From: an uncultured Pelagibacteraceae bacterium
GTDB taxonomy: Bacteria > Pseudomonadota > Alphaproteobacteria > Pelagibacterales > Pelagibacteraceae
Direction of reading: 5' to 3'
NCBI GenBank assembly: GCA_902580275.1
Contig: CACHJZ010000006.1
Span: 17,375-81,374 of the forward strand
DNA length: 64,000 nt
A program made the translations under genes and the position numbers. Shown in pieces: positions 26,786 to 30,506 of this stretch. How positions within the stretch are numbered: the stretch's first letter is position 1; each line of letters starts with the position of its first letter. The notes beneath the pieces were generated by a model that was not told the origin of the DNA, did not search any database, and saw only the letters and a program-made list of their open reading frames with translations.

Positions 26786-28117
26786 ATGAGTTCAAAATTT
26801 TTGTTAGTAAAAGAAAAAGTAAAAAAATTTAATAAATTTTTAGAAGTTGATGGTGATAAAAGTATTTCAATAAGATGGTTATTGCTTGCATCTCAGTCAA
26901 TAGGAATTTCAAAAGCTAAAAATTTATTAAGATCAGATGATGTATTAAGTGCGATTAAATGTTTAAAAAAATTAGGTATTAAAATTACACTTTCAAATAA
27001 CCAATGCGTAATACTTGGAAGAGGCATCAATGGTTTTAAGTATAAAAAAAACATTGTTTTAAATGCTGGAAATTCAGGAACAGTAGGAAGATTAATATTA
27101 TCTCTTTTAATAAAGTCACCTTATAAAATAAAAGTAATTGGTGATAAAAGTTTATCTAGAAGAGATTTTTCAAGAGTTATAAATCCATTAAACGAGATAG
27201 GTGTAAAATTTTACCCAAGGGGTAAAAAAAAACTTCCAATTTCAATATTGGGTTCTAACTATTTAAGACCAATCAGTTATTTCGAAAAAAAAGGATCTGC
27301 TCAATGTAAAACTTGCGTTATGTTTGCGTCTTTAAATACCCCAGGTGAAATGAGGATATTTGCAAAAAAGTCGAGGAATCATTCTGAATTAATGTTTAAT
27401 TATCTAAATATTCCCATAAAGATTAGTAGTGGAAGAGATATAGACATTATAAAAACCTCTAGTCCATATAAATTAAATAAATTTAACATAAATATTCCTG
27501 GAGACATAAGTTCTGGAGCTTTTTTTATAGCCTTAACTCTTTTATCAAAAAATTCTCAACTAACATTAAAGAACATCAATTTAAATCCTACACGACTAGG
27601 AATTTTAAAAATCTTAAAAAAAATGGGTGCAGATATTAAAACAAGTAATATCAAAATTAATAATGGTGAAAGATGTGGAGATATCTTTGTTAAAAGTACT
27701 AACAAACTTAAATCAATAAATTGTCCTGCTTCATTAAATAGTAGTGCAATAGATGAGTTTTTAATAATTTTTCTAATAGCTGCGAAATCTAAAGGAATTT
27801 CATATTTTAAAGATCTTTCTGAATTAAATAAAAAAGAAAGCCCAAGATTAAAACTTGGATCAAAAATATTAAATATGATTGGAATTAAAACTAAACTTAC
27901 AAATAGCTCAATTAAAATTTATGGAAATCCAAATATTAATTTAAATAAGGAATATGAAATCAAAAATTATTTAAAAGATCATAGGATAATGGCAATGTGC
28001 ACAATAGCTGCTTTAACATTTGGAGGGAATTGGAAAATATATGATCCTGAGTCAATTAAAACTTCTTTTCCGTCATTTCTTAAAATCCTAAGGAATAAAT
28101 TTGGAGTTAAAATTTAA
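26786..28117 (+). CDS. aroA: 3-phosphoshikimate 1-carboxyvinyltransferase (EPSP synthase)
   Basis: Sixth step of the shikimate pathway. Substrate-contacting residues of the family are present: GDKSISIRW (Lys, Ser, Arg), GNSGTVGRL, GDKSLSRRDFSR, SAQ, the IDE aspartate, KESPR and DHR. Several otherwise conserved neighbours are changed: KSISHR reads KSISIR, RPM reads RDF, and KESDR reads KESPR. 443 aa. The last nucleotide is shared with the cmk start. This aroA-cmk-rpsA-ihfB order is common in proteobacteria. Confidence 0.92.
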   Translation: MSSKFLLVKEKVKKFNKFLEVDGDKSISIRWLLLASQSIGISKAKNLLRSDDVLSAIKCLKKLGIKITLSNNQCVILGRGINGFKYKKNIVLNAGNSGTVGRLILSLLIKSPYKIKVIGDKSLSRRDFSRVINPLNEIGVKFYPRGKKKLPISILGSNYLRPISYFEKKGSAQCKTCVMFASLNTPGEMRIFAKKSRNHSELMFNYLNIPIKISSGRDIDIIKTSSPYKLNKFNINIPGDISSGAFFIALTLLSKNSQLTLKNINLNPTRLGILKILKKMGADIKTSNIKINNGERCGDIFVKSTNKLKSINCPASLNSSAIDEFLIIFLIAAKSKGISYFKDLSELNKKESPRLKLGSKILNMIGIKTKLTNSSIKIYGNPNINLNKEYEIKNYLKDHRIMAMCTIAALTFGGNWKIYDPESIKTSFPSFLKILRNKFGVKI

Positions 28118-28770
28118 TGAAGAAAAAAAAATTTATAACAGTTGCAATAGACTCTCCTGCTGCTGCTGGAGCTGGCACTCAAGCTAAGCTAATAGCGAGA
28201 CACTACAACCTTTTACATCTCGACACCGGAAGAATTTATAGGTTTATTGGTAAAATTAGTATGGACTCACCAAAAAATTTTAATTTGAAATATTTAAAAA
28301 AAAAAATTGAAAAACTTAAACTTGATGATCTAAAAGAGAGAAGCTTGCTATCTGATAAAATTGCAACAGCAGCATCTATAATTGCAAAAAATAAAAAAAT
28401 TAGAGCTTTAGTTCATAAGTTTCAGCAAAAAATTGCTTATTCACCACCCTCAAATTTTTCTGGTTCTGTTCTAGATGGAAGAGATATAACTAGCGTACAG
28501 ATGAAGGATGCTATGTTTAAGTTTTACATAACAGCAAATCTGAAAGTAAGGGCTCGTAGGAGATATAAAGAATTTAAAGCCTCACAGAAAAAAATAAGCT
28601 TTGATCAGGTGTTAAAAAGTATTAAAAATCGCGATAAATCTGACAAAAATAGAAAATATGGTCCACTTAAAAAAACCAAAGATTCGATATTGATTAATAC
28701 AACTAAACTTAGTAGAAAACGATGCTTTGAAAAAATAAAAGCAATTATGGATAGGAAAATTAAAAATTAA
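28117..28770 (+). CDS. cmk: Cytidylate (CMP) kinase with altered P-loop
   Basis: Phosphorylates CMP/dCMP. Family landmarks: LDTGRIYR (35-42, usual D-S/T-G-xx-YR), LDGRDITSVQMKDA, and RDKSDKNRKYGPLKK. The Walker A region, normally GPxxSGKGT, reads SPAAAGAGT at 13-21: the first Gly is Ser and the invariant Lys is Ala (A19), with codons TCT CCT GCT GCT GCT GGA GCT GGC ACT. 217 aa, slightly short. Its position between aroA and rpsA is the standard one for cmk. It shares one nucleotide with the rpsA start. Confidence 0.9.
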   Translation: MKKKKFITVAIDSPAAAGAGTQAKLIARHYNLLHLDTGRIYRFIGKISMDSPKNFNLKYLKKKIEKLKLDDLKERSLLSDKIATAASIIAKNKKIRALVHKFQQKIAYSPPSNFSGSVLDGRDITSVQMKDAMFKFYITANLKVRARRRYKEFKASQKKISFDQVLKSIKNRDKSDKNRKYGPLKKTKDSILINTTKLSRKRCFEKIKAIMDRKIKN

Positions 28771-30506
28771 TGGAAATTTACAAAAGTCTCGAAACAAAAG
28801 CCTCAAAAGAGTTTAAAGAATTATTAAACAGTCAACTTTCAAAAACAAAAAATTTAGCAGAAGGAAAAATAATTGAAGGTAAGATAACAAAAATTACAGA
28901 GAAATTTATATTTTTATTTATTGAAGGCCTTAAATCTGAACCAGTAATAGATATAAATGAACTAAAGAGCATGGGGTTATCAGAACAAATAAAAATTGGT
29001 AACAAAATTTCTGTGCTTTTGGAGAGAATAGAAGATAAAAATGGAGAAGTTGTTGTTTCTGCATCAAAAGCTTTAAAAATCAAAGGTTGGGATAAGTTAG
29101 TTGAGGCATATGAAAAAAGTACTCCAATAATGGGAAAGATCACCTCAAAATGTAAAGGAGGCGTAATAGTTGAACATATTGAAACTGGATCTCTTATGTT
29201 CTGCCCTGGATCTCAAATATCTGACAAACCTTTAAAAGATATATCACATTTAATGAACGAGCCTCAAAAGTTTGCTTTAATAAAACTAGATAAAGTACGA
29301 GGTAATGCATGTGTTTCTAGAAGGCAAATAATTTCTTCAAACAAGAAAGAGGATAAAGCGAAAATCATAGAAAAATATAAAGTGGGTGATGTCATAAAAA
29401 ATGCAATAGTTAAAGGTTACAGTTCTTTTGGTTGTTTCTTTGATGTAAATTCTGAGTTAGACGTTCTAGTCCACCTTCAAGAAATAAGCTACTCAAGAGT
29501 AAATCACCCTGAGGAAATTTTTAATATTGGTGAAAAACACGATTTATTGGTTATTTCAGTTGATAAAGAGAAACAACAAGTAGGATGTTCTATAAAAAAA
29601 CTTTCGCCAGATCCATTTGAACATATTTCAAATTATGAGCTTAATAAAGTTTATAAAGTAAAAGTTGTCAAACTTATGGACTTTGGAGCATTTTGTGAAC
29701 TTGAGCCTGGTTTAACAACTTTGCTTCACTCAAGTGAATTAAGTTGGACAAAGAAAAACCCATCTGCAAAAAAAATGTTTAAGGTTGGAGATGAAATTTC
29801 TTGTGTTATCACAGAAATTGACAAAGAAAAAAGAAGAGTGTCGATTTCTCACCGTTTGACAGAAAAAAACCCATATGAGTTACTTACTGAAAAACATCCG
29901 GTGGACAGTATTGTTGATGGAGAGATAGCCTCAATAAATGATTATGCAATTTATGTGAAAATTGATGGATACGAAATAGACGGCTTTCTTCATGCTAACG
30001 ACATCACTTATAATAAAAAACCTGAAGAAGAGCTTAAAAAATATAAAAAAGGGGAAAAATTAAAAGTAAAAATTCTTGAAATAAAACCTGAACAGCAAAA
30101 AGTTAGAGTTGGCCTTAAACAAACTGAGCAAGACCCGTTTGATTGGTTTAAAGATAAAAAAGTTAATGAGGCTATAACAGTAAAAGTGATAGAAACTGAT
30201 AGCAAAGGTTTATTAGTTGTTCCAGAGGGAAGTAAGATTGAGTTAAATATTAAAAAATCCCAGATTGCTATAAATGCCTCTGATGCAAGACCAAACAGAT
30301 TTATTAAAGGAGATAGAATAGATGCTGCAATACAAGAATTAGACTTAAAGAAGAGAAAAGCTAGTTTGAGTATCAAATTACTAGAGGAGCTTCAAAATAA
30401 AGAAGCCGTATCTAAATTTAGTTCACCTTTATCAGGAAAAAATCTTCCATTTTCATCATTATCGGATAAACTTGAAATAAAAGAGAATAAAAAAAAGAAA
30501 GAATAA
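28770..30506 (+). CDS. rpsA: 30S ribosomal protein S1
   Basis: Binds mRNA on the 30S subunit. The 578-aa protein consists of about six S1-type OB-fold repeats; repeats 3-5 are clearest, with GCFFDVNSELDVLVHLQEISYSR, GAFCELEPGLTTLLHSSELSW and YAIYVKIDGYEIDGFLHANDI. Each is followed by the usual basic segment. The Lys-rich tail is typical. Translation is coupled to cmk (TAATG). In a genome with few visible Shine-Dalgarno sequences, S1 is likely important for initiation. Confidence 0.96.
   Translation: MEIYKSLETKASKEFKELLNSQLSKTKNLAEGKIIEGKITKITEKFIFLFIEGLKSEPVIDINELKSMGLSEQIKIGNKISVLLERIEDKNGEVVVSASKALKIKGWDKLVEAYEKSTPIMGKITSKCKGGVIVEHIETGSLMFCPGSQISDKPLKDISHLMNEPQKFALIKLDKVRGNACVSRRQIISSNKKEDKAKIIEKYKVGDVIKNAIVKGYSSFGCFFDVNSELDVLVHLQEISYSRVNHPEEIFNIGEKHDLLVISVDKEKQQVGCSIKKLSPDPFEHISNYELNKVYKVKVVKLMDFGAFCELEPGLTTLLHSSELSWTKKNPSAKKMFKVGDEISCVITEIDKEKRRVSISHRLTEKNPYELLTEKHPVDSIVDGEIASINDYAIYVKIDGYEIDGFLHANDITYNKKPEEELKKYKKGEKLKVKILEIKPEQQKVRVGLKQTEQDPFDWFKDKKVNEAITVKVIETDSKGLLVVPEGSKIELNIKKSQIAINASDARPNRFIKGDRIDAAIQELDLKKRKASLSIKLLEELQNKEAVSKFSSPLSGKNLPFSSLSDKLEIKENKKKKE

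Follow-up and report, generated by a model that had tools for sequence, protein, structure and literature searches.

A Pelagibacteraceae cytidylate kinase homologue without the P-loop lysine, probably a working enzyme with a rebuilt donor-phosphate site

The 64,000-nucleotide stretch of uncultured Pelagibacteraceae (SAR11) DNA analyzed here, hereafter the window, comes from a 1.18-Mb genome assembled in 18 contigs and carries, between aroA and rpsA, a cmk gene whose product is a homologue of (d)CMP (cytidine monophosphate) kinase, Cmk, that lacks the P-loop lysine. We consider it likely that this protein is the cell's working (d)CMP kinase with a rebuilt donor-phosphate site, because the gene is well conserved and is the only member of its family in the closed genomes checked. 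Translation of the open reading frame (ORF) begins MKKKKFITVAIDSPAAAGAGTQAKL, and the product scores 141 bits against the NCBIfam model TIGR00017 ((d)CMP kinase; cutoff, 135.55) and 147.1 bits against the Pfam model Cytidylate_kin (PF02224; cutoff, 26). The gene and its altered P-loop residues are as follows, with counts taken from the alignment of relatives described below.

28117..28770, plus strand: cmk, lysine-less (d)CMP kinase homologue, 217 amino acids, above the TIGR00017 and PF02224 cutoffs
28153..28179, plus strand: altered P-loop S-P-A-A-A-G-A-G-T, residues 13 to 21, among the lowest-entropy 10-residue segments of the lysine-less rows
28153..28155, plus strand: codon TCT, Ser13 replacing the first P-loop Gly; Ser in 109 and Ala in 1 of 110 lysine-less rows, Gly in 68 of 68 lysine-bearing rows
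28171..28173, plus strand: codon GCT, Ala19 replacing the P-loop Lys (E. coli K18); Ala in 101, Gly in 6, and Ser in 3 of 110 lysine-less rows, Lys in the 68 others

A preliminary description of this DNA had reported the P-loop as SPAAAGAGT with GCT at the lysine codon, and we read the same letters at 28171-28173; the Walker A pattern G-x-x-x-x-G-K-[GST] is not present. Being a Cmk by descent, fold, and acceptor site with a noncanonical Walker A position, the protein is, on sequence grounds, a member of a lysine-less variant subfamily of Cmk and not an ordinary member of the family. The alignment contains 178 distinct Cmk rows, 110 of which, all from Pelagibacteraceae, are without the P-loop lysine; the 68 that have it are 30 Pelagibacteraceae sequences, 18 from a sister family, 19 from other Alphaproteobacteria, and that of E. 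coli. Rows were grouped by residue 19 only (Ala, Gly, or Ser versus Lys), and no row had any other residue there. Residue 13, which was outside the grouping criterion, divides along exactly the same line, so the loss of lysine is more than chance. Across the lysine-less rows codon 19 is GCA in 55, GCT in 37, GCG in 8, GCC in 1, GGA in 6, TCA in 2, and TCC in 1, while Ser13 is encoded by all six serine codons; with all four alanine codons in use at position 19, the residue has been held while the DNA drifted. The lysine-less P-loops, found in four genera (the window's own, g227, g228, and g238), end in GAGT, GGGT, GAGS, or GSTS, none with Lys; the GSTS form belongs to three rows (L283, L284, and L285, from g227 and g228), the same rows that carry NGRD for DGRD.

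This distribution bears on the simplest alternative, that the alanine is a sequencing or assembly error or that the gene is decaying locally, which the relatives refute and to which we give next to no credence. As the preliminary description had noted, GCT is no one-base slip, since it differs from AAA and AAG at all three bases, and the comparison with related genomes that it had proposed shows the change to be common to 110 of 178 rows in one clade and so not a local error. Low ratios of nonsynonymous to synonymous substitution (dN/dS; given below) also speak against decay. Decayed copies do exist, but elsewhere only: in the aroA-rpsA slot, two other genomes (G378 and G237) have a cmk with many stops and a third (G422) has one with a frame change, and nothing of the kind was found for the window. 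A rewired genetic code was likewise rejected, as GK is read normally in adk, gmk, and further P-loop ORFs of the single-contig genome G012, as well as in lptB in the window. A search for a viral origin gave 20 stretches of viral DNA matching a peptide pattern, of which none was confirmed.

Surveys of relatives gave a consistent picture of how widely the variant occurs. The first search found a cmk match in 56 of 61 genomes, the source genome included. In the window's own genus, 31 of 36 further genomes had a match, and these fell into 20 at 56 to 80% identity to the window, all lysine-less, and 11 at 33 to 39%, all with lysine. In another survey, 72 same-genus genomes had a match, and by hand count 49 of them fall in the lysine-less score band (E value of 1e-86 or below), a band taken as lysine-less because every sequence read within it is without lysine; the genus, family, and order surveys were judged by score, with sequence read for fetched loci only. 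At the level of the class, 260 of 289 genomes had a cmk match, and the P-loop lysine was present in 20 of 20 fetched loci read, mostly the best-scoring ones, with G000 and G322 known separately. All 80 named-record loci are lysine-less; they are the best 80 of 446 stretches found with two peptide patterns, nearly all from uncultured Pelagibacteraceae, and are biased toward close relatives of the window, one pattern spanning Ser13-Pro-Ala-Ala and neither including residue 19. Contig-end fragments (L160, L163, L164, L165, L166, L168, L171, and L177), pseudogene loci (L169, L178, L180, and L181), and identical strings were excluded from the 178 rows; one of the fragments, L165, has a readable P-loop, DSPAAAGGGT, that is likewise lysine-less. 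Two pairs among the 110 lysine-less rows are more than 98.5% alike. Loci found later (L298-L329) lie outside the 178 rows, and those that were read agree with the row pattern.

A maximum-likelihood tree was built from 84 of the 178 rows with the P-loop columns removed; in it, 30 of 30 lysine-less rows form one clade with support of 100/98, requiring one change. This clade lies within Pelagibacteraceae Cmk, as it and 25 lysine-bearing rows of the family together split from the rest, E. coli included, again with support of 100/98. Because the root is placed outside the Pelagibacteraceae Cmk clade, the single change is a loss of lysine rather than a gain, and the tree indicates that the lysine was lost once and that the loss has been kept across four genera. 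A single genus can hold lysine-bearing and lysine-less cmk, and the aroA-rpsA slot itself is occupied by one kind in some genomes and by the other kind in others, so the slot appears to have been swapped between the two kinds.

The variant gene is, by its substitution pattern, not decaying and under purifying selection. Median pairwise dN/dS, calculated by the Nei-Gojobori method with our own script over the same 890 pairs (common to all four genes and nonindependent), was 0.162 for cmk, 0.181 for pyrF, 0.249 for aroA, and 0.260 for lptB. Within the 110 lysine-less rows, the 10-residue segments starting at residues 9 to 12 take the first four of 199 places in conservation, and none of them falls below fifth place when the rows are thinned to 34 or to 6, with segment 12-21 ranking fifth in the 34 thinned rows and fourth in the 6 divergent ones. 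The relaxed donor-site constraint expected of a pseudokinase is thus not seen, as the P-loop segments rank 1 to 5 of 199 and dN/dS is 0.162. Given the top-ranked P-loop segments, the varied codons, and the invariant CMP-site and lid residues, the donor loop has been exchanged for another and afterwards maintained rather than given up.

The acceptor site and lid are retained at the following positions.

28240..28242, plus strand: R42 (E. coli R41), presumably a CMP-phosphate contact; 110 of 110 and 68 of 68 rows
28474..28485, plus strand: D120-G-R-D123 (E. coli D129-D132); R122 and D123 in 110 of 110 lysine-less rows, D120 in 107 of 110, with Asn in 3
28549..28563, plus strand: R145, R148, and R149 (E. 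coli R154, R157, and R158), presumably lid arginines; 110 of 110 each
28630..28653, plus strand: R172-D173-xx-D176-xx-R179 (E. coli R181/D182/D185/R188); 110 of 110 each

The residues that we take to contact CMP in the E. coli enzyme (S36, R41, S101, R110, R131, D132, R181, D185, and R188) have as equivalents in the window T37, R42, S87, R96, R122, D123, R172, D176, and R179. At the equivalents of E. coli R41, R110, R131, D132, R181, D185, and R188, Arg or Asp is present in 110 of 110 lysine-less rows, and the less strict ones are Ser in 99 and Ala in 11 (S87) and Thr in 109 and Ser in 1 (T37). The preliminary description was right that DGRDI and RDxxDxxR are kept (residues 120-124 and, as RDKSDKNR, 172-179), but its placing of the latter in the lid did not hold: R172, D173, D176, and R179 correspond to E. 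coli R181, D182, D185, and R188, most of which we assume to be CMP or phosphate contacts, and the lid arginines are more likely R145, R148, and R149, counterparts of E. coli R154, R157, and R158. An AlphaFold model of the window Cmk (input, the window sequence plus 39 named-record loci) had a predicted local distance difference test score (pLDDT) of 84.7 and a predicted template modeling score (pTM) of 0.80. CMP kinases head both the Foldseek and the VIA-align lists for this model, in which the P-loop is of low confidence; the best structural match was 2cmk (Z score, 21.2; root mean square deviation, 2.6; 204 residues), tied with 3r20, and more distant matches, such as adenylate and shikimate kinases, reflect the common fold only.

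A kept acceptor site beside a lost donor lysine also fits a protein that binds CMP and is no longer a kinase, its donor site being dead, which could act as a sensor, a buffer, or a partner of another protein while CMP is phosphorylated weakly by another nucleoside monophosphate (NMP) kinase or is not recycled. The missing lysine and first glycine, the DGRD Asp lost in 3 of 110 rows, and the retained CMP-site Arg and Asp residues all agree with this account, which we nevertheless judge unlikely: a dead donor site would not need a P-loop that is among the most conserved stretches of the protein, with Thr or Ser kept at position 21 in 110 of 110 lysine-less rows, or lid arginines that are invariant.

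Gene content bears on the same question. Four single-contig genomes that carry the variant and whose P-loops were read (G012, G106, G409, and G733) each have one Cytidylate_kin gene above the cutoff, and it is lysine-less; G106 has one additional match below the cutoff. A tblastn search of G012 with four Cmk types found one strong locus, and a motif scan of its joined contig, which has some masked bases, found ordinary adk- and gmk-like ORFs. The replacement enzyme Cytidylate_kin2 (PF13189) was over its cutoff in none of six genomes, the two weak matches being the lysine-less cmk itself. The preliminary description had allowed for a case in which all relatives share the alanine, the enzyme is inactive, and another kinase does the job; the relatives do share the change, and a kinase of another kind with side activity on CMP may yet fill that role, but no second Cytidylate_kin gene above the cutoff was found in the four single-contig genomes and no Cytidylate_kin2 gene over its cutoff in the six. 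The result for the four genomes also counts against the idea of a mere CMP binder. Genomes without any match (61 of 399 in one survey and 23 of 247 in another) do not show that cmk is dispensable where they were followed up: in the eight checked (G011, G015, G029, G030, G032, G320, G368, and G266) rpsA was also missing or was represented by a weak S1-type match inside another large ORF, so the cmk locus is not in those assemblies, and for these eight we rejected the absence of cmk. In one further genome (G855), pieces of cmk are split over two contigs.

In three genomes (G237, G378, and G104), a divergent lysine-less cmk lies outside the aroA-rpsA slot. In G378 (L236:3708-4343, minus strand) and G237 (L239:3932-4329, plus strand) the slot copies are pseudogenes with many stops that are nearest the lysine-less type, a decay that agrees with the account of a mere CMP binder; each of these genomes, however, holds a second cmk that is intact and also lysine-less, and since the pseudogenes are of the lysine-less type, one lysine-less gene seems to have replaced another. 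The third genome, G104, has both Cmk types, which agrees with the CMP-binding account; it shows that two kinds of cmk coexist and that they may not be fully equivalent.

The substitutions that set the lysine-less proteins apart concern the other side of the active site, where the following features lie.

28666..28695, plus strand: loop L184-I193 (LKKTKDSILI) with K186, best candidate for a compensating positive charge; conserved as a segment, with K or R at 186 in 110 of 110 lysine-less rows
28696..28698, plus strand: N194 codon, replacing the usual Asp; Asn in 108 of 110 lysine-less rows, Asp in 56 of 68 lysine-bearing rows
28186..28188, plus strand: K24 codon, the candidate of the preliminary description; basic in both groups and nonspecific

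That some other residue would be needed in place of the P-loop lysine, as the preliminary description had argued, is supported by the true absence of the lysine. Its suggestion that K24 holds the phosphate is unlikely because lysine-bearing enzymes keep K24 too (Lys or Arg in 66 of 68 rows, an ordinary family feature), and the position is nonbasic in 5 of the 110 lysine-less rows. Position 186, by comparison, is Lys in 107 and Arg in 3 of the lysine-less rows and basic in 16 of 68 lysine-bearing rows; it is the sole invariant basic position of the former that is unconserved in the latter, other such positions being conserved there at 82% or more. The aligned E. coli residue is P195. K/R39 was ranked second because it is missing in three lysine-less rows (basic in 107 of 110). 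Loop 184-193 ranks fifth of 199 segments in conservation in the 110 lysine-less rows and seventh in the 34 thinned rows; in the lysine-bearing rows as a whole it is 78th, and in those from Pelagibacteraceae it is 81st before thinning and 103rd after. Its region presumably borders the bound adenosine triphosphate (ATP), as in adenylate kinase.

In the mechanism that we propose, the P-loop of an ancestor within Pelagibacteraceae would have changed once from D-G-x-x-x-x-G-K-[GST]-[TS] to D-S-P-A-x-[AS]-G-A-G-T, with the P-loop Thr or Ser, the CMP site, and the lid arginines retained and the donor-phosphate site rebuilt around them. The lost charge would most likely be supplied by R145, R148, and R149 of the lid together with Lys186 of the LKKTKDSILI loop, which between them would cover the donor phosphates, a contact involving two loops that are uncertain in the model. 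We infer that lysine-less Cmk is catalytically active with ATP as its donor and that K186 makes contact with the donor phosphates. The same clustering of changes could instead mean that the protein uses a different phosphoryl donor or reaction in which the lysine is not wanted (another nucleoside triphosphate [NTP], polyphosphate, or pyrophosphate, or mainly the reverse reaction): G13S, K19A, loop 184-193, and D194N all fall on what we take by homology to be the donor side, and the acceptor-site Arg and Asp residues are unaltered. This we think rather improbable, as positive evidence for another donor is lacking and the fold, the lid arginines, and the P-loop Thr are typical of an NTP-using kinase.

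Several observations weigh against a working ATP-dependent CMP kinase with K186 in the place of the lysine. P-loop lysine mutants of adenylate kinase lose most of their activity, and cmk is nonessential in E. coli, so retention of the gene alone is no proof of catalysis. In one genome (G422) the sole cmk is lysine-less and frame-changed (L241:4361-5003, plus strand), through either a sequencing fault or real loss; if real, the gene can be lost. The intact lysine-bearing cmk in the slot of G104, alongside its lysine-less copy elsewhere, fits two different jobs as well. The Asn for Asp in the DGRD of three lysine-less rows resembles a further decay of metal binding, and the least certain blocks of the model are residues 11 to 20 (pLDDT, 59) and 181 to 190 (pLDDT, 57). 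As for K186, the loop drops to rank 22 when only the 6 very divergent lysine-less rows are used, a basic residue is found there in the 16 lysine-bearing rows and also, by alignment, in S. aureus Cmk, and with one loss of lysine on the tree its association with that loss is a single event, statistically untestable. Finally, a study of mycobacterial dephospho-coenzyme A (CoA) kinase describes P-loop Lys-to-Ala changes as giving conflicting results, some enzymes losing all activity (PMC3019153).

On the other side, in the same study, K14A cost dephospho-CoA kinase only 19% of kcat and G8A changed little, and the authors proposed Arg140, near the lid, as compensation (PMC3019153). These two mutants keep most of their activity, which shows that a P-loop kinase can survive a change of this kind. 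K14A is an engineered single mutant of an enzyme with a different acceptor, whereas the window Cmk represents a natural, conserved lineage. Compared with other bacterial Cmk proteins, the window Cmk has no P-loop lysine, Ser for the first Gly, Asn194, and an invariant K or R186 in loop 184-193; it shares with the E. coli (2cmk and 1kdo), S. aureus (2h92), and S. pneumoniae (1q3t) enzymes the fold, the family score, and the CMP-site and lid residues. Deviant Walker A proteins such as MinD and ArsA resemble it in their nonstandard use of lysine near the P-loop, but those proteins retain the P-loop lysine and have another besides, and the P-loop of the window Cmk has none. Our keyword search of the open-licence literature, judged mostly from listings, returned no report of lysine-less Cmk.

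By the usual view the P-loop lysine is a near-absolute requirement in NMP kinases, and it is used to call family members active or dead; if the lysine-less SAR11 Cmk is active, that rule fails in nature, and the lysine-bearing and lysine-less forms in one genus and slot would make a clean system for studying how a P-loop enzyme is rebuilt. If it is inactive instead, many SAR11 cells are without a recognizable CMP kinase, and the picture of their pyrimidine and lipid-CMP recycling changes. The broader proposition, that there is a natural P-loop kinase lineage without the P-loop lysine, with the catalytic charge moved to K186 and the phosphate loop now S-x-x-x-x-G-[A/G/S]-[G/T]-[T/S], and that in many SAR11 genomes it is the only recognizable CMP kinase, we advance tentatively, with the balance somewhat against its holding in every part.

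The surroundings of the three relocated copies differ. Transfer of CMP-activated sugars releases CMP, and the contexts in two of the three genomes (G237 and G378) point to such sugars by the gene families present; the third (G104) does not. The extra cmk of G237 (region L238:414-7080) is the last gene in a same-strand run after a cytidylyltransferase, an aminotransferase, and a formyltransferase-like gene, and 23S ribosomal RNA follows just past the run (4328-7080 of L238); the cytidylyltransferase is over the PF02348 cutoff, and its best NCBIfam model is PseF, at 137 bits versus a cutoff of 206. The extra cmk of G378 adjoins a NeuB-family gene on the opposite strand (over the Pfam cutoff, with the NCBIfam models not over theirs), and a KdsC-like HAD gene, below its cutoff, is three genes away. 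In G104 the neighbors of the lysine-less copy are a gene of the ATP-sulfurylase family and one for a B12-binding radical SAM protein; near the latter, an AdoCbl-II riboswitch (L234:4290-4368, plus strand) precedes an ORF that by eye is a putative TonB-dependent receptor in this SAR11 genome.

In the window itself, cmk is joined to its neighbors by start/stop overlaps on both sides.

26786..28117, plus strand: aroA, upstream neighbor overlapping cmk, named from position and the preliminary description; same order in relatives
28770..30506, plus strand: rpsA, downstream neighbor overlapping cmk, named from position and the preliminary description; same order in relatives

This is the standard aroA-cmk-rpsA position that had been claimed for the gene, and the order recurs in 78 of the 80 named-record loci, the other two having, in the stretch examined, one no aroA hit and the other no rpsA hit. 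In E. coli, aroA and rpsA flank cmk too, but ycaL stands between aroA and cmk. The lysine-bearing Cmk proteins of Pelagibacteraceae (a slot type in G004, G013, and G104; a relocated type in G322 and G016; and those of genus g230) belong to the same clade as the window protein, and some occupy the same slot; they differ in having the canonical lysine, in the 33 to 39% identity of the 11 same-genus ones, and, for the relocated type, in lying elsewhere, with aroA beside rpsA. Seven loci from part of the genus (L244-L250, from G019, G003, G016, G035, G002, G322, and G022) show this arrangement, in which rpsA comes immediately after aroA and the genome has its lysine-bearing cmk at another place. 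One of the 80 named records, titled Parcubacteria (L079, ARS72), carries a SAR11-type lysine-less cmk 99.5% identical to that of a Pelagibacteraceae record (L081), and because of this identity its title is probably wrong. Three loci of genus g230 (L286, L288, and L289) encode a lysine-bearing Cmk whose P-loop ends in GKNT, with Asn where other rows have Gly, Ser, or Thr. An open frame of 657 to 669 amino acids contains cmk, apparently fused to aroA, in two further genera of the family (L276 of G520 and open frames of G719, G730, G739, G746, and G754).

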